Notes: a model not told the origin generated them from the sequence alone. Counted from the stretch's first letter, positions 969 through 17,412 are shown. The stretch: DNA of 17,412 nucleotides from Bdellovibrio sp. (GCA_020725805.1 DYEF01000068.1:1-17412), one strand, 5' to 3'. Program-made: numbers and translations.

Positions 969-2681
969 ATGAAGGATTTGCTTATCAACAATTTTCTCAG
1001 ATACGGGGCGAGGGCTCTATTTACAAGAACCATTAAAAAATTCGAAAACGATACGACCAATTTAAGAGAGGCACAGGAGAACGCCCTTAAAAAGATAATA
1101 GAAAAGAACAGAGACACTCTCTACGGAAGAGAGTTTGGTTTTCAGAACATCAGGTCGGTTGAGGATTTTCAAAAGGCCGTTCCTCTAAATGACTATTCTA
1201 CGCTGGAGCCCTACATCGAAAAAATGGTAATGGGAGAGACGAATATTCTTACTCCCGATGAGATAATCTTCTTCGGCACAACCAGCGGGACGACAGCCAA
1301 GCCCAAGTTTATACCGATTACAGACGAACACTTCAGATATGTGGGCAGGTCGGTTCTGCCATATTTCAGATTCATTACAGAGGAGGCGCCGGCCGCTATC
1401 AGAGGCGGGACTATCAAGATGACCTCACCCAAACTCGAGGGATTTACAGAGAAGGGTGTCCCCTACGGCTCTCCGTGGTACATAACCGAAGTGGCAAAAA
1501 ACAGAAGAAATCCGCTCATAAGGGATATCTTTATCTCTCTCAACAGAAACTACTGGGAAGACGAGATATTCAATATTACTGACTTCAACACAAAATATTA
1601 CATAATTATGAGACTCGCCGTCGAGAGGAATATCACACACTTTTCGATGGCCAATCCGTCTACCGTCCTGCTCTTTGCAAAAAAGCTCAACGAGTTTGCC
1701 GAAGACATAATCAGAGACCTCTATGACGGACAGATCAAGAAAGGCATCTTTCTCGACCCCGCCTTAAGAATAAAACTGATGAGAAAGATAAAGAGAAACA
1801 CGAAAAGGGCAAAGGAACTCGAGAAGCTCCTTGCATCTGACGGAATGCTCAAACCCTCAAAGGTATTCAAAAATCTTGCCCTTATCTCCTGCTGGAAGGG
1901 TGGTTCGGCCGGATTCTACATAAAGCAGTTCCCCAGATACTTCGACAACACCCCTACAATGGAATACGGAATCGGTGCAACCGAAGGCATATTTGCAATC
2001 CCGTATAAACTGGAGGAGCGCGGCTGTATACTCCAGCCCGGATATATATTCTTCGAATTCATCCCCGAGGAGGAATACTTTTCCGACAGAAAGACTATTC
2101 TTACCGCAGACCAGATAAAGGAAGGGGGACGTTATTCTATAGTTATTACGGGATACAACGGTCTCTACCGGTATGATATGAGGGACATCGTGGAAGTCGT
2201 CGGATTCTACAACCGCGCACCCGTAATTGCATTTCTGCACAAGGCAGGGAATGCCGTCTCATATACAGGAGAGAAAATCTTCGAAACACACATAACAGAC
2301 GCGGTGAACCTCACAATCTCCGATACCGGCATTCAGCTCAACGGGTTTACATTCCTTCCCGACGAAAGCGGCGAACTCCCGAGATACATCCTGATGATAG
2401 AGCCCCAGAAGGAACTAAAGGAGGAAACCGCCTCCGATTTTCTGAAAGCTTTCGAAAAGAATCTCAAGAAAGTCAATATGGAATATGAGACCAAGAGAGA
2501 TTCGATGAGGCTCGGCGCCCCTGCCCTTGCGATACTCAAAGGCGGCGAATATGAGAGATTCAGGGCATCCCTCATTGCAAAAGGCGCATCGGATGCCACA
2601 ACAAAACCGCCGGTTCTCAAAAAAGAGCCATCCTTTATAAACAATTTCAATGTTATCAGAAGAACCGAATTAAAGGAGTAA
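969..2681 (+). CDS. GH3-family acyl-adenylating protein (acyl-amide synthetase-like)
   Basis: A 570-residue cytosolic protein of the GH3 branch of the ANL adenylating superfamily, close to the usual family length. The ATP-binding motif TTSGTTAKPKFIP is at residues 104-116, the second motif YGIGATEG at 333-340, and the third, YRYDMRDIVEVVGF, at 400-413, with SYTGEKIFE at 431-439. Plant GH3 enzymes adenylate a carboxylic acid and conjugate it to an amino acid. Bacterial homologues are mostly uncharacterised, so the substrate cannot be named. AGAGGAG lies 5 nt before the ATG. It leads a tight operon with a DUF2505-like protein and two acyltransferase domains, which suggests the acyl-adenylate or amide feeds an acyl-transfer pathway, perhaps lipid-related (inference). 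Family call is confident. Confidence 0.88.
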   Translation: MKDLLINNFLRYGARALFTRTIKKFENDTTNLREAQENALKKIIEKNRDTLYGREFGFQNIRSVEDFQKAVPLNDYSTLEPYIEKMVMGETNILTPDEIIFFGTTSGTTAKPKFIPITDEHFRYVGRSVLPYFRFITEEAPAAIRGGTIKMTSPKLEGFTEKGVPYGSPWYITEVAKNRRNPLIRDIFISLNRNYWEDEIFNITDFNTKYYIIMRLAVERNITHFSMANPSTVLLFAKKLNEFAEDIIRDLYDGQIKKGIFLDPALRIKLMRKIKRNTKRAKELEKLLASDGMLKPSKVFKNLALISCWKGGSAGFYIKQFPRYFDNTPTMEYGIGATEGIFAIPYKLEERGCILQPGYIFFEFIPEEEYFSDRKTILTADQIKEGGRYSIVITGYNGLYRYDMRDIVEVVGFYNRAPVIAFLHKAGNAVSYTGEKIFETHITDAVNLTISDTGIQLNGFTFLPDESGELPRYILMIEPQKELKEETASDFLKAFEKNLKKVNMEYETKRDSMRLGAPALAILKGGEYERFRASLIAKGASDATTKPPVLKKEPSFINNFNVIRRTELKE

Positions 2682-2684
2682 TAT

Positions 2685-3194
2685 ATGATATACCGTGCAA
2701 CCCACACCCTTAAGATAAAGGAAGAGGATTATTTCAGGGCTATGTTCAGCGACGAATTTGACAACTATCTTTCGGAAAAGCTCAATCTCGCAAGCCGTAA
2801 AACTCTCTACAACAATGAGACAGACGAGAGAATCGAGAGAAAGGTAAGGTCGACATCGAAGGAGTTGTCAGAGAGGGCGCAGAGCATTCTGAGACAGAAA
2901 ACCCTTACCGTCGACGAAGAGATTACTGTCAACAAGACTACGAAGGAGTTCAGCTGGCAGTTTGTCCCCGACGTCTTTACAAAGATGGTCACAATAAAGG
3001 GGAAGGGGAGGATATACAAAAAGGATGAGGAGAGCATCAACCGGGAGATGGAGCTGGATATCAAAGTTCACGTCCCGCTTTTCGGGAAGAAGATTGAGGA
3101 GTTTATCATAAGCAGACTCGATGCCTGGTACGAAAAGGTAAATCTGTCGCTCGAGGAATTTTATCAGAAAGTATATCTTAAAAAGGTCAACTGA
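2685..3194 (+). CDS. DUF2505-like protein (SRPBCC/START-type fold suspected)
   Basis: A 169-residue cytosolic protein without signal peptide or membrane helix. It begins with the pattern of DUF2505 and other SRPBCC-fold proteins: an initial strand with 'ATHTLKIKEEDYFRAMFSDEF', alternating strands through the middle, and a C-terminal amphipathic helix preceded by KVHVPLFGKKIEEFIISRL (about 124-142). SRPBCC proteins usually hold a hydrophobic ligand in a deep cavity, so a lipid or acyl carrier role would fit its place between an acyl-adenylating enzyme and two acyltransferases; that is inference. The ATG lies 3 nt after the GH3 stop, and AAAGGAG at 2672-2678 overlaps the end of that gene, so translation is probably coupled. 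The family assignment is by eye and moderate. Confidence 0.62.
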   Translation: MIYRATHTLKIKEEDYFRAMFSDEFDNYLSEKLNLASRKTLYNNETDERIERKVRSTSKELSERAQSILRQKTLTVDEEITVNKTTKEFSWQFVPDVFTKMVTIKGKGRIYKKDEESINREMELDIKVHVPLFGKKIEEFIISRLDAWYEKVNLSLEEFYQKVYLKKVN

Positions 3195-3205
3195 AGAGGT
3201 GAGAT

Positions 3206-4021
3206 ATGAACAGGACACCTGAAGAGATTATTGCAATGAGAAGGCTGGTGATCGACAGGTTTCACCGCCTGAACTGTGCACCTACCGTAACGATCAATAT
3301 GGATGCATTTATCGAGCCCGCCCTGGCCTTCAAGGACAGACTTAATCAGGACGAGCGGGCAAAGAAATACAAGATTACCTTAAATCACATTATTCTTAAA
3401 GCCACTGCAATGGCACTAAGGGAGCATATCTTTTTCAACTATGATTACGACGGGAAATACAGGATATATCCGAACGACAAAATTGACATACGAACACCTG
3501 TTGACCTCGGAGAATTCCCGATGCACATAGTGATACCCGATACAGACAAGAAGAATGTCTTCGAGATAGCCCAGACATTCAACGAACGTCTCGAGGAAGT
3601 CAGAAAGAATGTGGATACACAGATGCAGAAATACGTAAACTTCCAGATGAAAAACAAGGGTCTTTCGGCACTTATGAACGTATGGACAGAGATAGCCAGA
3701 AGGGCCAGACCGTATTTTCCGAGATGGGAGAAGAGGTGGTTTGAAATTCAGCACAGGTTTATAGGGACATTTATGGTAACAAATATGGGTACCCTCGGTG
3801 TAATCGATTGCCACGGCCAGCTCGTAAAACCGTCTATTGCAGCACTTCTCGTCCTCTCGTCAAAGGACGTGGCCGAGATAGTCGACGGTAAGCCCGTAAA
3901 CAGAAAATATCTCGGACTGGCACTCGAATTCGACCACAGGGTAACGGATGCCGGTGAACCGGGACGTTTTCTGGCGACAATCAAGCGAAACCTTGAAGAA
4001 CCGGAGAAATACTGCATATGA
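3206..4021 (+). CDS. stand-alone E2/CAT-type acyltransferase, first copy
   Basis: A 271-residue protein matching only the catalytic domain of 2-oxoacid dehydrogenase E2 components, which share the chloramphenicol acetyltransferase fold. There is no lipoyl domain or peripheral-subunit-binding domain, so it probably does not serve a classical dehydrogenase complex; no E1 or E3 gene is nearby. The active-site motif is DHRVTDAG at 243-250, keeping the catalytic His244 and Asp248. The GTFMVTNMGTLGV motif is at 187-199. A stretch rich in aromatic and basic residues (about 150-185) precedes it and is longer than in classical E2 proteins. GAGGTGAG at 3196-3203 precedes the ATG. It overlaps the next gene by 4 nt (ATGA) and is its paralogue. 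It likely transfers an acyl group from CoA to an unknown acceptor. Confidence 0.82.
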   Translation: MNRTPEEIIAMRRLVIDRFHRLNCAPTVTINMDAFIEPALAFKDRLNQDERAKKYKITLNHIILKATAMALREHIFFNYDYDGKYRIYPNDKIDIRTPVDLGEFPMHIVIPDTDKKNVFEIAQTFNERLEEVRKNVDTQMQKYVNFQMKNKGLSALMNVWTEIARRARPYFPRWEKRWFEIQHRFIGTFMVTNMGTLGVIDCHGQLVKPSIAALLVLSSKDVAEIVDGKPVNRKYLGLALEFDHRVTDAGEPGRFLATIKRNLEEPEKYCI

Positions 4022-4836
4022 ATATCTTTGACCCGGAAGATTACATTGCCCGACGGCTGCATATGATAAGGACCTTTTCCGAAAAGAGGGTTGGTCCGAC
4101 AGTGCTTGCCACAATAGAAGTAAATATGGACAACGCCCTCAGATACAGAGAAGAATTCAATAATAAATCCGATACGAAGGTCTCCCTGAACGATATGATA
4201 ATCAAGGCTACCGGAAATGCGCTTACAAAACACCGCCTCTACACATGGGCATACAACGGCAGATACAGGCTCTTTCCGACCGATAAAATTGACATCCGAG
4301 CACCTGTGGATGTCGGAGATGACCTCGGTATGCTCATAGTAAGGGATGTTGACAAGAAGAGCCTTAAAGAGGTAGCGGAGGAATCAAAGAGGATTCTTAA
4401 GCAGATAAAGGATTCGACTCAGGCAAGACTCGACAGGATTGCCAGTATCAATAAAAAATTCTGGTTTTTAAGGCCTGTTGTCGGCGCAGGACGAAAGATT
4501 TTTGAACTGGCAACCCTCCTCTCGCCCGATCTGGAGGAGTGGCTCTATCAAAAGCATAGAGAGACTCTCGGGACATTTCTGATTTCGAATCTCGGCAAAC
4601 TCGGTGTAAACGATGTAGCATCACCGATTGTGACTCCCTCAATCGTCCAGATGAATGTCAGCACACTGGAGAAAAAGAAGATAGCGGATAACGGGACTCT
4701 GAAGGAGATCAGCATTATCAAACTCATCGGGAAACTCGACCACAGAATAACCGATGTGGCACAGACGGTCAGATTTCTCAAAGACATAAAGAAGAATCTG
4801 GAAGAACCGGAAGAAGGACTGAAAAGGATTGAATAA
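4018..4836 (+). CDS. stand-alone E2/CAT-type acyltransferase, second copy
   Basis: A 272-residue paralogue of the preceding gene, alignable end to end: the DKIDIRAPVDVG block at 89-100, GTFLISNLGKLGV at 185-197 and the active-site DHRITDVA at 241-248. The His242 and Asp246 pair is kept, but the Gly that normally follows is Val. The same long insert with hydrophobic and aromatic residues (about 147-182) sits before the GTF motif. No lipoyl domain is present. The start codon overlaps the stop of the first copy (ATGA), the usual sign of translational coupling. CAT-fold enzymes work as trimers with the active site at subunit interfaces, so the pair may form a mixed oligomer (inference). The operon ends here, 13 nt from the convergent pgsA. 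Confidence 0.82.
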   Translation: MNIFDPEDYIARRLHMIRTFSEKRVGPTVLATIEVNMDNALRYREEFNNKSDTKVSLNDMIIKATGNALTKHRLYTWAYNGRYRLFPTDKIDIRAPVDVGDDLGMLIVRDVDKKSLKEVAEESKRILKQIKDSTQARLDRIASINKKFWFLRPVVGAGRKIFELATLLSPDLEEWLYQKHRETLGTFLISNLGKLGVNDVASPIVTPSIVQMNVSTLEKKKIADNGTLKEISIIKLIGKLDHRITDVAQTVRFLKDIKKNLEEPEEGLKRIE

Positions 4837-11284: not shown

Positions 11285-13261
11285 ATGGAAGATTTAACAG
11301 CCTTTCTCGACCGGACACAACTACTGCATTTTTTCCCGGCCCACTACAAGGAGCAGATAGCAAAGCACCTGATAAAACTCGAATTTCAGAAAGACAAGGT
11401 CATCTTCAAGGAAGGTGACCCGTCTGACGGATTATATCTGATTGCCGCCGGCTCGGTAGGCGCATTCATCTCGGACCCCGAACTCGGGATAGAATTCCAG
11501 ATAGCCAGACTGGGTATAAACGAGTGCTTCGGCGAGATGGGCCTTTTAACCGGCGAACCAAGGTCGGCAACAATAAGAACACTCGAAGACGTCGTTTTGT
11601 ACCAGCTTCCGTCAAAGGTCTTCTTTACACTCTTAAACGGCAGTGCACAGATGGCCGTCGAGCTCGGAAAGATTCTTGCAAAAAGGGTTGCGGAGATGAG
11701 CCGCAATCAGCCTACCACACAGACCGCCGACATCAGCAGATTTCAGTTCAATGCCGACCTCTTTCATATGCTCTCGGAAAATCTCATAAACCAGCATAAA
11801 ATCATCCCGCTCGCACTCGAAGAAGGGACACTCACAGTAGGCTCAGTGAATATCAAGAATACCCTTGGCTACGATGCAGTAAAGAGGATTTTCAGAGGAG
11901 TAAGACTGCAGCCTCTACAGATAAGTGAATCCGATTTCAACAAGTTTATGGAGAAGGCAAAACAACTGATGGCAAAGCCCGTAGCCGCCGCACCTCAGGT
12001 AAAGAAGGCGCATACCATTCAGTACTGGTCGGAGGACGAAAAGGACGAAAAGGCGGGTATGTCGATATCCGGAGAGGAGACCAGGAAGATTCTCGACAGC
12101 ATACTCTCAGAGGCGATCGACCTCGAGGCGAGCGATATTCACATCGAGCCGGAATATGAAGAGACCGTGGTTAGATACAGGGTCGAAGGAAGACTCAGAA
12201 AACGTTCGGGAAACGTACTCCCGAGACATATCTACAGAAGCCTCGTGAGCAGAATAAAGGTTCTGTCAAAACTCGATATCGCGGAGAAAAGACTTCCGCA
12301 GGACGGACGATTCTCGATAACCATCGACGACAGAGACATAGATTTCAGGGTCAGCACGCTTCTTTCAAAAAACGGAGAGAAGGTGGTCTTAAGAATCCTG
12401 GATGCCTCCACCGCACTCATCGAACTCTCGAGAGTCATAATAGCCGATAAAATCTATCAGGTGATAAGAAGAGTTCTTTTCCAACCGCACGGAGTGATAC
12501 TGATATCCGGTCCTACCGGTTCAGGAAAGACAACGACTATGTACTCGATGCTCAACGAGAGGAAATCCAAGGAACTCAACATTGTAACGGTGGAGGACCC
12601 CATCGAGTATTCAATCCCCGGAATAACACAGGTTCAGATCAACGAGGCAATCGGCCTCGGATTCTCTACGGTCCTCCGGACAATTCTCAGACAGGACCCC
12701 GATATCATTCTTGTGGGAGAGATAAGGGATTCGGATACGGCGAAGATGGCATTCGAGGCAGGGCTCACCGGTAAACTTGTTATATCCTCATTCCACGCCA
12801 ACAACTCACTCTCCGCACTCGTCAGACTCTTCGAACTCGGAATCGACCCGTATCTCGCATCGAGCGCACTGCTCGGAATCATCAACCAGAGACTCGTAAG
12901 AAGGCTCTGCCCGAACTGCGCAAAACCATTCGATTATCCCGAGGCGGTCATCAAGAGCCTCACATTTGCAGGCGCCTACGACCCGAAGGTCCCGGTAAAA
13001 CTCCTTCAGCCGAGAGGTTGCCCGACCTGCAACAATGCAGGATTCAAGGGCAGGATGAGTGCGCTCGAACTTATGATATTCAACGAAGCGACCAAACACC
13101 TCATTCTCAAGAAGGCCCCGCCTGCGGAGATAAAGAGAGAGGCAGAGAAAGGCTCTTACATATCTCTCGGGAAATATTGCAATTTCCTCCTTGCAAATGG
13201 TCTTACCGCACCCGGTGAGGTACTGAGAGTCCTTCCCAGAGAAGATGAGATGAAGGTATAA
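11285..13261 (+). CDS. cNMP-binding domain fused to GspE/PilB-type secretion/pilus ATPase
   Basis: A 658-residue cytosolic motor ATPase of the type II secretion/type IV pilus extension family with an extra N-terminal domain. Residues about 15-130 are a cyclic-nucleotide-binding domain; its phosphate-binding cassette is FGEMGLLTGEPRSAT (82-96) with Glu84 and Arg93 kept, so real ligand binding is plausible. Residues about 150-230 resemble the MshEN/GspE N-terminal domain. The ATPase domain has Walker A GPTGSGKT (409-416), the Asp box TVEDPIEY with Glu437 and Asp438, Walker B IILVGEIRD (474-482), the His box with His504, and four zinc-site Cys (542, 545, 579, 582). All catalytic features are intact. 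GGAGG at 11276-11280 supports the start. No gspF, pilC or pilin gene is in view, so its partners lie elsewhere. Confidence 0.92.
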   Translation: MEDLTAFLDRTQLLHFFPAHYKEQIAKHLIKLEFQKDKVIFKEGDPSDGLYLIAAGSVGAFISDPELGIEFQIARLGINECFGEMGLLTGEPRSATIRTLEDVVLYQLPSKVFFTLLNGSAQMAVELGKILAKRVAEMSRNQPTTQTADISRFQFNADLFHMLSENLINQHKIIPLALEEGTLTVGSVNIKNTLGYDAVKRIFRGVRLQPLQISESDFNKFMEKAKQLMAKPVAAAPQVKKAHTIQYWSEDEKDEKAGMSISGEETRKILDSILSEAIDLEASDIHIEPEYEETVVRYRVEGRLRKRSGNVLPRHIYRSLVSRIKVLSKLDIAEKRLPQDGRFSITIDDRDIDFRVSTLLSKNGEKVVLRILDASTALIELSRVIIADKIYQVIRRVLFQPHGVILISGPTGSGKTTTMYSMLNERKSKELNIVTVEDPIEYSIPGITQVQINEAIGLGFSTVLRTILRQDPDIILVGEIRDSDTAKMAFEAGLTGKLVISSFHANNSLSALVRLFELGIDPYLASSALLGIINQRLVRRLCPNCAKPFDYPEAVIKSLTFAGAYDPKVPVKLLQPRGCPTCNNAGFKGRMSALELMIFNEATKHLILKKAPPAEIKREAEKGSYISLGKYCNFLLANGLTAPGEVLRVLPREDEMKV

Positions 13262-13433
13262 GAATATTGTTATTTATGTATTCATAAAGGTTAGAATTAT
13301 CTTTTCTATTATACTTAATCTGATCTGTTTGAATATATCTTGAGATATTCCTATCATACCACATCCACCAGTTGTAGTAGAGTCCTGTCTCTTCTACGAA
13401 ATGTTGTACAGGAAATCTGTGATTCTTATTCAT
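13262..13433 (-). pseudogene. truncated Rhs core-end fragment (orphan cassette A)
   Basis: Reading leftward from 13433, the frame gives the end of an Rhs core: HRFPVQHFVEETGLYYNWW, then MWYDRNISRYIQTDQI and NLYEYINNN. It matches the other three copies in this window until residue 57 (NNN, ending at 13263). There it stops abruptly and runs into antisense of the gspE end, whose stop codon is at 13259-13261. The tip and any partner gene that should follow are missing. It starts 8 nt after the stop of the upstream partner gene. No good ribosome-binding site is seen, so it is a dead remnant of a cassette, not a working gene. Confidence 0.8.
13365..13396 (-). repeat. Rhs core-end 32-bp block, copy A
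   Basis: This 32-bp block encodes EETGLYYNWW and is identical base for base to 14452-14483 and 15807-15838. It is the 5'-most shared anchor of the truncated cassette A. Confidence 0.85.
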
Positions 13434-13441
13434 TAATTAAT

Positions 13442-14113
13442 CTATTGGCAATATTTTTTATAATCTGATCTAACCCATATCTCTTCTTCATATCCTATAT
13501 ATTCCTTTATTAGTTCACAATATAATTCAGTACTCAATTTATCTTGCTTACATATAAGATATGGCATCAAAAGAGATAATGCTTTTAATTTTTCTCCACT
13601 AGATATATATTCTAAGTATTCCATATAAATATCACCTGTAAAATCCTTTATATTCTTACAATCCTTTATTTGATCAAATTCAAAATAATTGGGTCCTATA
13701 TGAATATAAAGTTGTTTCTTATCTAACACACTAGAGTACCTGAAGAGTCCAATCATTACAAAAATATTACCATCTGGGCTTTTCATCTTAATCAACTTTT
13801 TGCTTACCCTTTTATTTAAAAAGCTATCATAAAAATTTTCTCCATCGTCATTGTCAATTAGCCTGTAGTTTATTGATAAAAAGTATTTTTTGTAAAATTC
13901 TAATAAATTATCATTTCTGTTTTTCTCTTTTATCACACACCTATACTGCAAAACAAGTGAAGAAAATAGAGTCGATTTCTTTTCAAAATATTCGACACAT
14001 TCTTCATAAAGAGGTATCTTCAGTATTCCTTTATAATCTACAACGCTTGGTTTATCCATTGGTTCTCTGCAAAAAATAAAAAAAGCAATAATCAATAAAC
14101 AATACTTATTCAT
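13442..14113 (-). CDS. exported/lipoprotein-like partner of orphan cassette B (candidate immunity protein)
   Basis: A 223-residue protein not recognised as any family. Residues 1-15 (MNKYCLLIIAFFIFC) are a hydrophobic signal; Cys15 with Phe before it is a poor but possible lipobox, so it is either a lipoprotein or a simply exported protein. The rest is polar, Lys/Glu-rich, with scattered aromatics and a few Cys. The ATG at 14113 is preferred over 14128 because it starts the signal directly and lies 2 nt after the stop of cassette B, with weak AGAGTGA upstream. Codons are strongly AT-rich. Its position right behind an Rhs tip is where an immunity gene is expected; that role is inferred from layout only. 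Confidence 0.62.
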   Translation of the reverse strand: MNKYCLLIIAFFIFCREPMDKPSVVDYKGILKIPLYEECVEYFEKKSTLFSSLVLQYRCVIKEKNRNDNLLEFYKKYFLSINYRLIDNDDGENFYDSFLNKRVSKKLIKMKSPDGNIFVMIGLFRYSSVLDKKQLYIHIGPNYFEFDQIKDCKNIKDFTGDIYMEYLEYISSGEKLKALSLLMPYLICKQDKLSTELYCELIKEYIGYEEEIWVRSDYKKYCQ

Positions 14114-14115
14114 TT

Positions 14116-14610
14116 TCACTCTTGACATTTGTTCTTATTATCATCTTCCCTGCAACTCTTTTCTTCCCTAGGCTTGTTACATGCACACTCATCACCACTT
14201 TCTGGATCTAATCCATACTTATTACCACTCCATATTATTGGTGTATCAAATGGAACACATAACCAGTAACACATACAAATAACATTATAAACTCTATCCC
14301 ATCCTTGCCTTTGCCATTCACCATAACAGTCCTTCAATCCAAGAATATCGATATACATTTGTGGATTATTTTGAGAATAAATATATAAATTACCCTTAAA
14401 TTCTATCCAATCCTGTTGTAAGTATCGTCCCATCTGATTTTTATACCACCTCCACCAGTTGTAGTAGAGTCCTGTCTCTTCTATGAAGTATTGTCCCGGG
14501 AAGCGGAAGTTGTTTGTTGTTCTCTCAACCAATATATTCACCTTTCCAAATGGCTCATAATCTCCATACCACGCAATCTGTCCATTTTTGTCTGTTATTA
14601 TTAAATATGT
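14116..14610 (-). CDS. orphan Rhs core-end + Cys-rich tip (cassette B, no good start)
   Basis: The frame is open from 14610 but has no ATG; the first usable start is a GTG at 14541 with no convincing ribosome-binding site, so it is probably silent unless recombined. It carries the Rhs core end: TDKNGQIAWYGDYEPFGKVN, then FRFPGQYFIEETGLYYNWW and the YIDILGL end motif (to about 14335). A new tip of about 72 residues follows, with eight Cys and an acidic/basic tail (DDNKNKCQE). The tip shares no visible similarity with the other tips. The DNA at 14443-14597 is about 88% identical by eye to 16825-16979 of the main rhs gene. A candidate immunity gene follows by 2 nt. Toxin activity is not established. 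Confidence 0.68.
   Translation of the reverse strand, partial: TYLIITDKNGQIAWYGDYEPFGKVNILVERTTNNFRFPGQYFIEETGLYYNWWRWYKNQMGRYLQQDWIEFKGNLYIYSQNNPQMYIDILGLKDCYGEWQRQGWDRVYNVICMCYWLCVPFDTPIIWSGNKYGLDPESGDECACNKPREEKSCREDDNKNKCQE
14443..14597 (-). repeat. Rhs core-end repeat, copy B (155 bp)
   Basis: Aligned without gaps to 16825-16979 it shows about 18 differences by eye (about 88% identity), mostly third-position transitions. It includes the 32-bp block at 14452-14483 shared with copies A and C. Homology ends abruptly near 14597. Confidence 0.8.
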
Positions 14611-14638
14611 TCAACATATAAATTAGTCACTGCTTTTA

Positions 14639-15277
14639 TTATTTATTAATCTCCATTATTTTTTCTATAAAATCTCCTTTCTCTGTGCTTATCCCAACAT
14701 AGCCAATCCCATTACAGAAATGATAATCATAATTTAATAATTTACCAAATCTATTAATTTCCTCACTTTCACATCTAATGATTATACATTTAGTTTTAAC
14801 ATTTGCATATTCCTTTTCATAAATATTGTTTATTTTACACCTAATTGATATTTTCTTTTCCTCCTTTTCTCTAAATGACTTTCCTTTATTTTCACTTTCA
14901 ATCAACAATCCCGTATTTGTCCCTGAAACATTCCACTCTTTTCCAATATATACAGGCCCCTCCATAATAACAGACTTTTTGGAAATCCCATCCTCAATAA
15001 AATAAATTTTGTCATTATTTTTGTCAATTTCGTAATACATAATAATATCTTTTGTAATAATAGGTTGTTCTGTTTTAATCCTAACATCTGCAAAAGATTT
15101 TTTTAATTTTATTTTGACAATATCATCTTGTTCCAATATGTTTTCCACCTTAATATTATAATCGAAATATTTATTTTTATATTTATAAACAGTACCCTCA
15201 TTTAACTTCCAAAAATAGTTATATATGCTTTCTGTTCCAGCGAAAATATATAAGAATTGTATAGTAAAGATAATCAT
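14639..15277 (-). CDS. exported beta-rich partner of orphan cassette C (candidate immunity protein)
   Basis: A 212-residue protein with a short signal peptide (MIIFTIQFLYIFAG, then TES). The mature part is beta-rich: WKLNEGTVYKYKNK, GPVYIGKEWN, the segment AKVKTK-like ANVKTKCIIIRCESEE, and NYDYHFCNGIGYVGIS near the end. That order resembles a widespread group of secreted proteins described as DUF3108/TapB-like, but only loosely. A strong ribosome-binding site (AGGAGGAGA at 15286-15294) lies 8 nt before the ATG, so this gene is well set up for expression even though the upstream cassette is not. It starts 19 nt after the cassette C stop. The immunity role is inferred from position only. Confidence 0.65.
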   Translation of the reverse strand: MIIFTIQFLYIFAGTESIYNYFWKLNEGTVYKYKNKYFDYNIKVENILEQDDIVKIKLKKSFADVRIKTEQPIITKDIIMYYEIDKNNDKIYFIEDGISKKSVIMEGPVYIGKEWNVSGTNTGLLIESENKGKSFREKEEKKISIRCKINNIYEKEYANVKTKCIIIRCESEEINRFGKLLNYDYHFCNGIGYVGISTEKGDFIEKIMEINK

Positions 15278-15296
15278 TATTACTATCTCCTCCTAT

Positions 15297-15887
15297 CTAT
15301 TTACTAAAGCAATAATCAATACCACTCCAAGGATTTGGACAACAATATAGCTTACCATACGCTCCTTGCAAAACTATGCCAATTGTCTGCTCTGCATCTA
15401 AGATCCTTTCTTGTTTCCTGTATTCATATTTTACCTTTTCATCATATTTAATATAACACTTTAACTCATATTTATCTTTACATTCATCTCTTAATTTTTC
15501 ACAACAAAAATATCTTTCTCTAACTTCTCTTTTTTGTTGTATACTAGCAACTTTTTGCCACCAACAGGAAACAATATTTCCTGCAATATCTACTTCTATT
15601 GTTTGCAATTTATATTTATATCCTAATAAATTTGCATCTTCCCATTCTCCAGTTTTGGGAGGTAATGGAATGCAAAATAATCCTAAAATATCTATATTAT
15701 TTTGAGAATTATTTTTAACATAGATATATCCACTTTCTCTTTCAGAAATAGAAGTCCTAATTTTATCTTTCTGTAAATACCTCCCTGTCTCACTCCCATA
15801 CCACCTCCACCAGTTGTAGTAGAGTCCTGTCTCTTCTATAAAGTACTGCTCAAATAAGTGAAAGTTACTTTGAGTTCTTATTGCCAT
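15297..15887 (-). CDS. orphan Rhs core-end + Cys-rich tip (cassette C)
   Basis: A 196-residue ORF. Residues 1-70 are the Rhs core end (IRTQSNFHLFEQYF, IEETGLYYNWWRWYGSE, GRYLQKD and NNIDILGL); residues 71-196 are a new tip with nine Cys, including CC at 128-129 and near 181-182. The tip is not similar to the other tips and was not recognised. An ATG exists, but only AGAAG lies upstream and two stops (TAG at 15902-15900 and TAA/TAG in other frames) separate it from anything longer, so independent expression is doubtful. Unlike cassette B it keeps only a short stretch of core homology. It is followed by a gene with a strong ribosome-binding site. The most likely reading is a silent tip cassette of an Rhs locus. 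Confidence 0.7.
   Translation of the reverse strand: MAIRTQSNFHLFEQYFIEETGLYYNWWRWYGSETGRYLQKDKIRTSISERESGYIYVKNNSQNNIDILGLFCIPLPPKTGEWEDANLLGYKYKLQTIEVDIAGNIVSCWWQKVASIQQKREVRERYFCCEKLRDECKDKYELKCYIKYDEKVKYEYRKQERILDAEQTIGIVLQGAYGKLYCCPNPWSGIDYCFSK
15807..15838 (-). repeat. Rhs core-end 32-bp block, copy C
   Basis: Identical to the blocks at 13365-13396 and 14452-14483. The flanking DNA is related to copy D over about 15791-15850, then diverges. Confidence 0.85.
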
Positions 15888-16002
15888 TCTATTAATCTTC
15901 TAATTCATTACTATTATTACCCACCTCTTTATTAGCTCTAATTATTTCAATCTGATTCATTATCTTTTAATAATAAGCATTAAGAGAAAACAAAGTTGAA
16001 AT
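15888..16002. other. AT-rich gap between cassettes, no convincing gene
   Basis: This 115-nt gap separates the membrane partner protein from cassette C. On the minus strand it holds only a 22-codon ORF (15960-15892) without a ribosome-binding site and no recognisable hairpin terminator. It is the longest spacer in the array. Confidence 0.5.
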
Positions 16003-16413
16003 CTATAGAAGCAAGTATGAAACAGGCAACAAAAAAAACTCAATTTCCCAGCCTTTTATCCATGCTAATAATATTCCATAGATCAAAATGATGGTCCCAA
16101 GAAATGTAAAAATGATGGTATTGATTTTATTGATTTTTGAAAAAAACATATTATTTGTCCTTCCTTCTTGCTTAATACTATAATTTCTTATCATTAATAT
16201 TTCACTATCGATCATTGTCTTTGTTTTTCTAAATAAAAATATTAAACCTCCGGTTATGAAAACCGCTGAATCTCCAAGAATCTTATAAAGATAATACTTT
16301 TTATCATCCATTGGTAAAGGATAAATATCAAAAAACACTAATGACGAAATCACTATTCCAAAGATGTAAAAGGAATAATTAAACCCATAATAAATAAACC
16401 GAATTAGCATCAT
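16003..16413 (-). CDS. small multi-pass membrane protein, partner of the main Rhs tip (candidate immunity protein)
   Basis: A 136-residue membrane protein with about four hydrophobic helices: roughly 6-28, 45-62, 99-115 and 120-136. A short basic loop at 62-95 (FRKTKTM, then NYSIKQEGRTNNM) lies between the pairs. It was not recognised as a named family. The ATG at 16413 lies 2 nt after the rhs stop, without an obvious ribosome-binding site, so translation is probably coupled to rhs. A second Met follows directly and could be the true start. Immunity proteins against membrane- or periplasm-acting toxins are often multi-pass like this; here the role rests on position alone. Strongly AT-rich. 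Confidence 0.65.
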   Translation of the reverse strand: MMLIRFIYYGFNYSFYIFGIVISSLVFFDIYPLPMDDKKYYLYKILGDSAVFITGGLIFLFRKTKTMIDSEILMIRNYSIKQEGRTNNMFFSKINKINTIIFTFLGTIILIYGILLAWIKGWEIEFFLLPVSYLLL

Positions 16414-16415
16414 AT

Positions 16416-17412
16416 CTATAAATGTTGAGGTATTGGTGATTTATTTAAAGGAATGCATTCTTTCGCAGGAATTGGATAAAGTCCAAGAGTAAAGCAACCA
16501 ATACATACTATACAACTGACTTCTGTAATTACATCGATGGGATCAGGTAATGGATTTGCAAAACATTTCTTTAAGCAATCAATACATTCATCCATATTCT
16601 CACATTTCCTTTTACTTTTATCTTTCTTTTTATTACATTCTATTATGCAATATATCCCTTTACCTACATATTTGGCAGCACAAATAATACAAGCTAATTC
16701 ACAAATATCTGGGATAATATATATCTGACCGTTGAAATCAATATATAATTGTGAATTATTTCTTGCATAATAATAACTGTAATCAAAATAATCTACTGCA
16801 TTATACCTTCCTACCTCACTCCCATACCACCTCCACCAGTTGTAGTATAAGCCTGTCTCTTCTATAAAGTACTGCCCCGGGAAGCGGAAATTATTTGTCG
16901 TTCTCTCAACCAACATATTCACCTTCCCAAACGGCTCATAATCTCCATACCACACAATCTGCCCATTCTCATCAGTTAATACCTGCAGTGTCCCAAGATG
17001 ATCATTGTGATAGTAATAAATTCTATCAGCTGTCGATGATACATACTCCTTCTCAACAAAACTTATTTCATCAAAATATACCTCCCCTCCCCTCGTTGTT
17101 ATTGATATTGCATCAAACAATACTATCCCATTACAGGTATCATTGTCATTTATAAAACGTATCTTGTTTATTGTAGGATAATACCCATACTTTGCATACC
17201 AGTCCGCTCCCACAGGTATCTCATACACATTCCACTGATTTGCCGGCAAGCTGTTGAAATACCTGTAATTCACCCAATCTGCATTCCACCCATACTGCGT
17301 CCCCTGTGTAATATAGAGTAACTGCTTTGAATTATCTCCTATCCCTATCCCCTGAAGCTCACCTTTAAGCGGCACTTTTATTGCAACTCTCAATATACTA
17401 CCTCTGTTGAGC
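16416..17412 (-). CDS. Rhs protein, C-terminal part (5' end outside the window)
   Basis: The reading frame is open to the right edge of the window, so this is the 3' part of a larger rhs gene; the TTG at 17393 is not its start. From right to left: a jelly-roll, carbohydrate-binding-like domain to about 17043 (ending GGEVYFDEISF); the end of the Rhs core, 17021-16725 (RIYYYHNDHLGTLQVLTDEN, GDYEPFGK, FRFPGQYFIEETGLYYNWW, GRYNAVD, YIDFNG); and a tip of about 102 residues, 16724-16416, with 13 Cys and short hydrophobic runs. Rhs cores form a shell around the C-terminal tip, which is often a secreted toxin. The usual DPxGL cleavage motif is altered to YIDFNGQ, keeping the Asp. A membrane protein gene follows by 2 nt. 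Confidence 0.88.
   Translation of the reverse strand, partial: LNRGSILRVAIKVPLKGELQGIGIGDNSKQLLYITQGTQYGWNADWVNYRYFNSLPANQWNVYEIPVGADWYAKYGYYPTINKIRFINDNDTCNGIVLFDAISITTRGGEVYFDEISFVEKEYVSSTADRIYYYHNDHLGTLQVLTDENGQIVWYGDYEPFGKVNMLVERTTNNFRFPGQYFIEETGLYYNWWRWYGSEVGRYNAVDYFDYSYYYARNNSQLYIDFNGQIYIIPDICELACIICAAKYVGKGIYCIIECNKKKDKSKRKCENMDECIDCLKKCFANPLPDPIDVITEVSCIVCIGCFTLGLYPIPAKECIPLNKSPIPQHL
16825..16979 (-). repeat. Rhs core-end repeat, copy D (in the main rhs gene)
   Basis: The matching 32-bp block at 16833-16864 differs from copies A-C at three bases, all synonymous (the Gly and Leu codons of EETGLYYNWW). This is the copy attached to the full-length gene. Confidence 0.8.

Follow-up and report, generated by a model that had tools for sequence, protein, structure and literature searches.

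An array of Rhs core ends with candidate toxin tips and partner genes in an uncultured deltaproteobacterium

Introduction

Why would a genome keep several ends of one Rhs core side by side, and what are the small genes that lie next to them? This question is raised by one end of a 17,412-nt stretch of DNA (hereafter the window), which the original prediction read as an array of cassettes, each with a toxin tip and its immunity partner on a short piece of core. Orphan rhs-CT/rhsI modules in Dickeya, Yersinia and Salmonella have such an anatomy (PMC3150448, PMC3967940), and in Salmonella an orphan tip was activated by recombination with the main gene across 522 bp at 95% identity (PMC3967940). 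The window is an entire contig (C64) of an uncultured Deltaproteobacteria MAG of 3.29 Mb (G000). Of the genomes compared, only MAG SKW273 (G001) shares its genus and family, and the assemblies of G000, G001 and a third genome, G002, are 94-98% complete.

Results

Four Rhs core ends had been predicted in a row on the minus strand, and all were confirmed there as matches to TIGR03696 (cut-off 32.5 bits). Copy B matched at 14335-14559 with 74.1 bits, copy C at 15678-15875 with 47.5 bits, copy D at 16725-16940 with 45.9 bits and copy A at 13266-13433 with 40.6 bits, the last over model positions 13-66 only; PF03527 also matched copy D (E 3.4e-15). At the DNA level the core copies make up a repeat family 135 nt long, in which the other copies are 64-79% identical to copy B, and the cores of B and D share 178 nt at 84% identity. 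GC content falls from about 50% to 25-39% between position 13262 and the end of the contig.

All parts of the array are encoded on the minus strand. Copy D (16728..17411) consists of the Rhs core end and about 130 aa of upstream non-YD sequence, of which 126 aa had no other match anywhere in G000. It continues into tip D (16416..16727; 102 aa, 13 Cys, two hydrophobic stretches), and the joint frame is stop-free over 331 aa and runs past the contig end at 17412; D may belong to a larger rhs gene, as the original prediction had it. The short core fragment of copy C (15678..15887) is joined to tip C (15297..15677; 126 aa, 9 Cys) in a frame of 196 aa, while copy B, the longest core fragment among the orphans (14335..14610), is joined to tip B (14116..14334; 72 aa, 8 Cys) in a frame of 141 aa from the first start codon or 164 aa open. 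The frames and the TIGR03696 matches thus bear out the description of B and C as short pieces of core fused to new tips.

Each tip is followed by a different small gene, as anticipated, at measured distances of 2, 2 and 19 nt for D, B and C. Tip D ends at 16416 and partner D (16003..16413) starts at 16413; it is a 136-aa membrane protein with hydrophobic segments at residues 13-35 and 96-122. Tip C ends at 15297 and partner C (14639..15277), with a start at 15277, has 212 aa and a hydrophobic core that is probably an N-terminal signal peptide. Tip B ends at 14116 and partner B (13442..14113) starts at 14113, or overlaps the tip if an ATG at 14128 is used; it is a lipoprotein-like protein of about 223 aa, beginning MNKYCLLIIAFFIFC-, with a hydrophobic core followed by Cys. 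The three tips are unlike one another and so are the three partners.

Copy A (13262..13433) is a core remnant that has lost tip and partner. The prediction that it is cut off was right in that the copy is incomplete, but the junction sequence shows that this remnant breaks off where the neighboring gene has its stop codon (13261) and is not cut by the edge of the window. This neighbor is GspE/PilB-like: one protein encoded at 11285-13261 combines a GspE/PilB-type ATPase (MshEN and T2SSE) with an N-terminal cyclic-nucleotide-binding domain. Farther away, 969-4836 encodes a GH3-family protein, then DUF2505 and then a tandem pair of 2-oxoacid dehydrogenase acyltransferase catalytic domains, which stand alone without lipoyl domains; this gene set looks like one operon.

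Stop-free frames in the array reach 331, 230, 217, 200, 164 and 145 codons. In 200 dinucleotide shuffles the mean longest frame was 97 codons, and a frame of at least 130 codons occurred in 9 of them. Because length and number both exceed what shuffled sequence gives, the frames are not due to chance.

A Pfam and NCBIfam profile search of tips and partners returned nothing beyond the Rhs core, in agreement with the prediction that the pairs would be unrecognised. A PDB sequence search with partner C, partner B and tip C likewise gave nothing convincing. Structure prediction was one of the proposed checks. AlphaFold2 without an alignment gave a beta-rich model of partner C at low confidence (pLDDT 47.7; 33.1 for the frame of copy C), and no Foldseek match of partner C reached E 0.001. 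The top Foldseek matches of partner C were exported or lipoprotein-like beta proteins, which is a hint only. The tip and partner families are new in that neither Pfam nor NCBIfam contains them; the kind of locus is already known.

We looked for the same arrangement elsewhere in the genome and its relatives. Further copies of the window's core type (type 1) occur in G000 on contigs C69 (four, three of them with tips and partners) and, as single copies, on C44, C20, C71 and C15. On C65 there is one more array, with three tips, whose cores belong to a second subfamily. The C65 array (L047 4511-8367) is Cys-poor, two of its tips look glycine-rich and one partner carries HExxH. In G001, cassettes lie on two contigs (C99 and C103) that share an exact 141-bp end and so belong to one array of at least three cassettes and one decayed copy (L025 3740-6017 and L024 6697-4106). 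That array sits between ftsA/ftsZ/DUF523 and fur/feo genes (names read from translations), with no full rhs gene upstream. A separate G001 contig (C32; L026 448-3652) encodes a Rhs-like protein with an N-terminal signal peptide and no detectable YD repeats, split across two overlapping frames of 445 and 626 aa.

Across about 85,000 genomes, searches with the tip sequences found nothing; with the core, the matches were limited to SKW273 and a further Deltaproteobacteria MAG, VGRB01. A phylum-wide query with concatenated tip and partner lost sensitivity and missed known relatives in the same genome. VGRB01 (L054 140-5651) has a long Rhs protein with YD repeats and a Cys-rich hydrophobic tip, followed by an overlapping small hydrophobic protein; the similarity of its tip to tip D was not significant (z 1.8).

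The G000 assembly lacks the main rhs gene. YD repeats (TIGR01643) had no match in G000 or G001, and four contigs (C64, C69, C44 and C71) end inside rhs; the YD shell of the G000 rhs may be unassembled.

Tips and partners could be paired across these loci. The best tip pair was C69c-C44 (z 41), in which both members carry HEIAH, and the second was tip D with C69a (z 14.9 against shuffles), whose tips are 35% identical. When all partner pairs were ranked, the two at the top belonged to precisely these tips (z 6.1 and 3.6, respectively), a coincidence of ranks that we calculate at about 1 in 9,000 for 136 pairs. Because two independent tip families recur with recognizably related partners, tip and partner are inherited as a unit. 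A further proposed check was to look for the same tips on full rhs genes. The D family was seen twice, each time at the head of an array; for C no other occurrence was found.

In the G001 array one tip, itself an orphan, is weakly similar to tip B (z 5.6); its partner is lipoprotein-like as well, but not significantly similar to partner B (z 1.8). For tip C, a search of 195 genomes of the phylum found no relative. Divergence is faster in the partners than in the tips; the immunity proteins of CDI ionophores are highly polymorphic too, with about 30% identity within a group (PMC11630599). The sibling tips on C69 and C44 (L013 5556-6098; L014 1-603) read HEIAHAV...ADRWADEH and HEIAHAV...ASYWAEKN, which is zinc-metalloprotease-like. 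They have related partners of 350-365 aa and a weak NCBIfam match to the phage exclusion protein Lit (E 0.07).

The core end itself is well kept. GLYYNWW is common to 11 of 11 aligned core copies of the genus, and ten aligned copies keep a DxxG[LQR] motif right after which the tip starts; the proline of DPxGL is mostly replaced. Both aspartates of the Rhs C-terminal autoprotease, matched by position, are kept in nearly all copies and are the positional counterparts of Tse5 D1141/D1164. Given this retention, a tip recombined into a main gene could be cut free. In the core block several codons are fixed while neighboring synonymous sites vary, and we make no claim for a hidden recombination site at the DNA level.

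Homology among the core copies is limited. Exact runs shared with copy D span 16-33 nt, the longest being 24 nt for D-B and 33 nt for D-C. With only 135-178 nt of core homology at 64-84% identity, frequent switching in this strain is unlikely. The cores do not become steadily less similar to D the farther away they lie, as D-C is lower than D-B, so that a simple ordered displacement is not proven. A recombination test at third codon positions left 5 of 66 pairs below 0.05, about as many as chance would give; all-site runs looked significant and were discarded as confounded by non-homologous 5' flanks.

The orphan frames in the window have no Shine-Dalgarno (SD) sequence, with energies of -1.0 (C), -2.4 (B) and 0.4 kcal/mol (A) against -5.6 to -12.7 kcal/mol at the starts of nine flanking genes; in the rest of the genus the orphan tips give a mixed picture. 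Published orphan rhs-CT sequences also have no translation start signals (PMC3967940). The SD of partner C is strong (-10.2 kcal/mol), whereas those of partners B and D are weak, and these two partners may depend on coupling to the tip. A promoter scan was uninformative (34 matches against 26 expected, no terminators).

These signals bear on a variant that overlaps with the cassette-array reading, in which the orphan tips are never reused and the array serves as a library of immunity genes kept against kin or rivals. A strong SD on partner C beside SD-less orphan tips is what such a library would show, the G001 array has no upstream main rhs, and Vibrio immunity arrays arise in this way (PMC5361080). 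Yet the tips of B and C are still intact frames, where a library would let them decay like copy A, and the weak SDs of partners B and D may need the tip for coupling. We regard this variant as a credible minority view.

Export signals are common among the partners. N-terminal hydrophobic cores of 16 partners, compared with their own shuffles, gave a combined p of 1e-9; several reach it weakly alone and three are clearly without such a core. For partner B, the core followed by Cys had p 0.0025 against shuffles, and for partner C p was 0.06 alone. The signals of partner B and of one G001 partner (b) end in a lipobox-like Cys, and partners D, C69a and C69b are membrane proteins by sequence. Type-1 tips contain 6-16% Cys; for the G000 tips on C65 the figure is about 1%. 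No VipB/TssC (PF05943) sheath gene was detected in G000, G001 or G002, with E. coli as a positive control. Export by Sec, and not injection by a T6SS, is the probable route of Rhs proteins in this lineage, and the composition of tips and partners suggests toxins that act outside the cytoplasm or at the membrane.

Cys-rich tips and exported partners would also fit variable adhesive or structural domains of surface Rhs-like proteins, accompanied by membrane or lipoprotein accessory factors. The G001 Rhs-like protein with its signal peptide, the missing T6SS sheath and the failure of the tips to match any known toxin family point the same way. We nevertheless consider this improbable: sibling tips carry a zinc-protease motif, tips and partners pair one to one, the autoprotease aspartates are kept, and, as is seen with immunity proteins, the partners have diverged faster than the tips. 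Weakest and disfavored is the idea of degraded tails, that is, repeats left by unequal recombination inside rhs with unrelated bystander genes, which the copy A remnant and the divergent core copies (64-84% DNA identity) would allow but which the intact frames beyond chance, the recurrent tip-partner families, the constant 2-19 nt spacing and the repetition of the unit in several arrays and the sister species make very improbable.

Discussion

We conclude that the locus is very likely an array of orphan rhs-CT/rhsI modules, in which candidate toxin tips and their cognate immunity genes are carried on short core. This agrees with the original prediction and is supported by the published module layout, by the co-inheritance of tip and partner, and by recurrence at several unrelated loci and in the sister species.

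Such an array could arise if an incoming tip/immunity pair recombined with the end of the rhs core, using homology on the core side and illegitimate joining on the other. The new tip would become active, and the previous tip, its partner and a core stub would be pushed downstream, with the oldest copy (A) decaying. On this model the tip currently used would be that of D, and modules C and B would have been displaced. Homology-anchored illegitimate insertion has been described and also extended to strings of orphaned rhs 3' ends (PMC5361080); it accounts better than duplication for an array whose tips are unrelated.

Expression of partners without their tips could confer immunity to kin that still deploy an old tip, and such a tip could be restored if the cores recombined. 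A role as silent spare tips for a neighboring rhs is one possible role but not the only one, because the sister species has a store without an adjacent main gene.

We propose that the tips are disulfide-stabilized domains whose site of action is the inner membrane or the periplasm, with D probably a membrane-inserting toxin, and that the partners are exported or placed in the membrane because the tips act there. A more far-reaching scheme would have a Sec-exported, T6SS-independent Rhs, with every tip a disulfide-bonded extracytoplasmic toxin, every immunity protein exported or in the membrane, and scattered stores, able to exist without an adjacent rhs, that feed distant main genes in trans. 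Taken as a whole, this scheme is tentative and we would rather bet against it.

With this array come several tip/partner families not recognised before, from a lineage of which few genomes have been sampled. It also suggests that the swapping of Rhs tips is not confined to Gram-negative bacteria with a T6SS and that the toxins involved perhaps act outside the cytoplasm. The all-orphan array of the sister species lets one ask whether such stores hold spare weapons or spare antidotes.

Cys-rich tips, exported partners, the lack of a T6SS sheath and a free-standing store in the sister species are an unusual combination. The closest known systems, the rhs-CT/rhsI modules, share with our array the core stub, polymorphic tip and small linked gene in a same-strand row, as well as orphan tips without start signals. 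Unlike them, the lineage described here has no T6SS sheath that we could find, Cys-rich tips, partners that mostly bear export or membrane signals, several array loci, a sister-species array without a main gene in cis, and shorter and more divergent core homology. The T6SS immunity arrays of Vibrio cholerae resemble it in stepwise downstream displacement and in anchor homology on one side only; there mainly immunity genes remain, whereas here orphan tips are intact (PMC5361080). Tse5 of Pseudomonas aeruginosa has a Rhs core, a two-aspartate autoprotease and a membrane-acting C-terminal toxin to which tip D may be compared, but it is pore-forming and T6SS-delivered, and we draw the likeness as an analogy and claim no sequence relation (PMC10684867). 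CDI ionophore toxins differ in being delivered by CdiA; they resemble the proposed toxins in being polymorphic and in acting on the membrane, and the immunity proteins belonging to one toxin group diverge strongly (PMC11630599).
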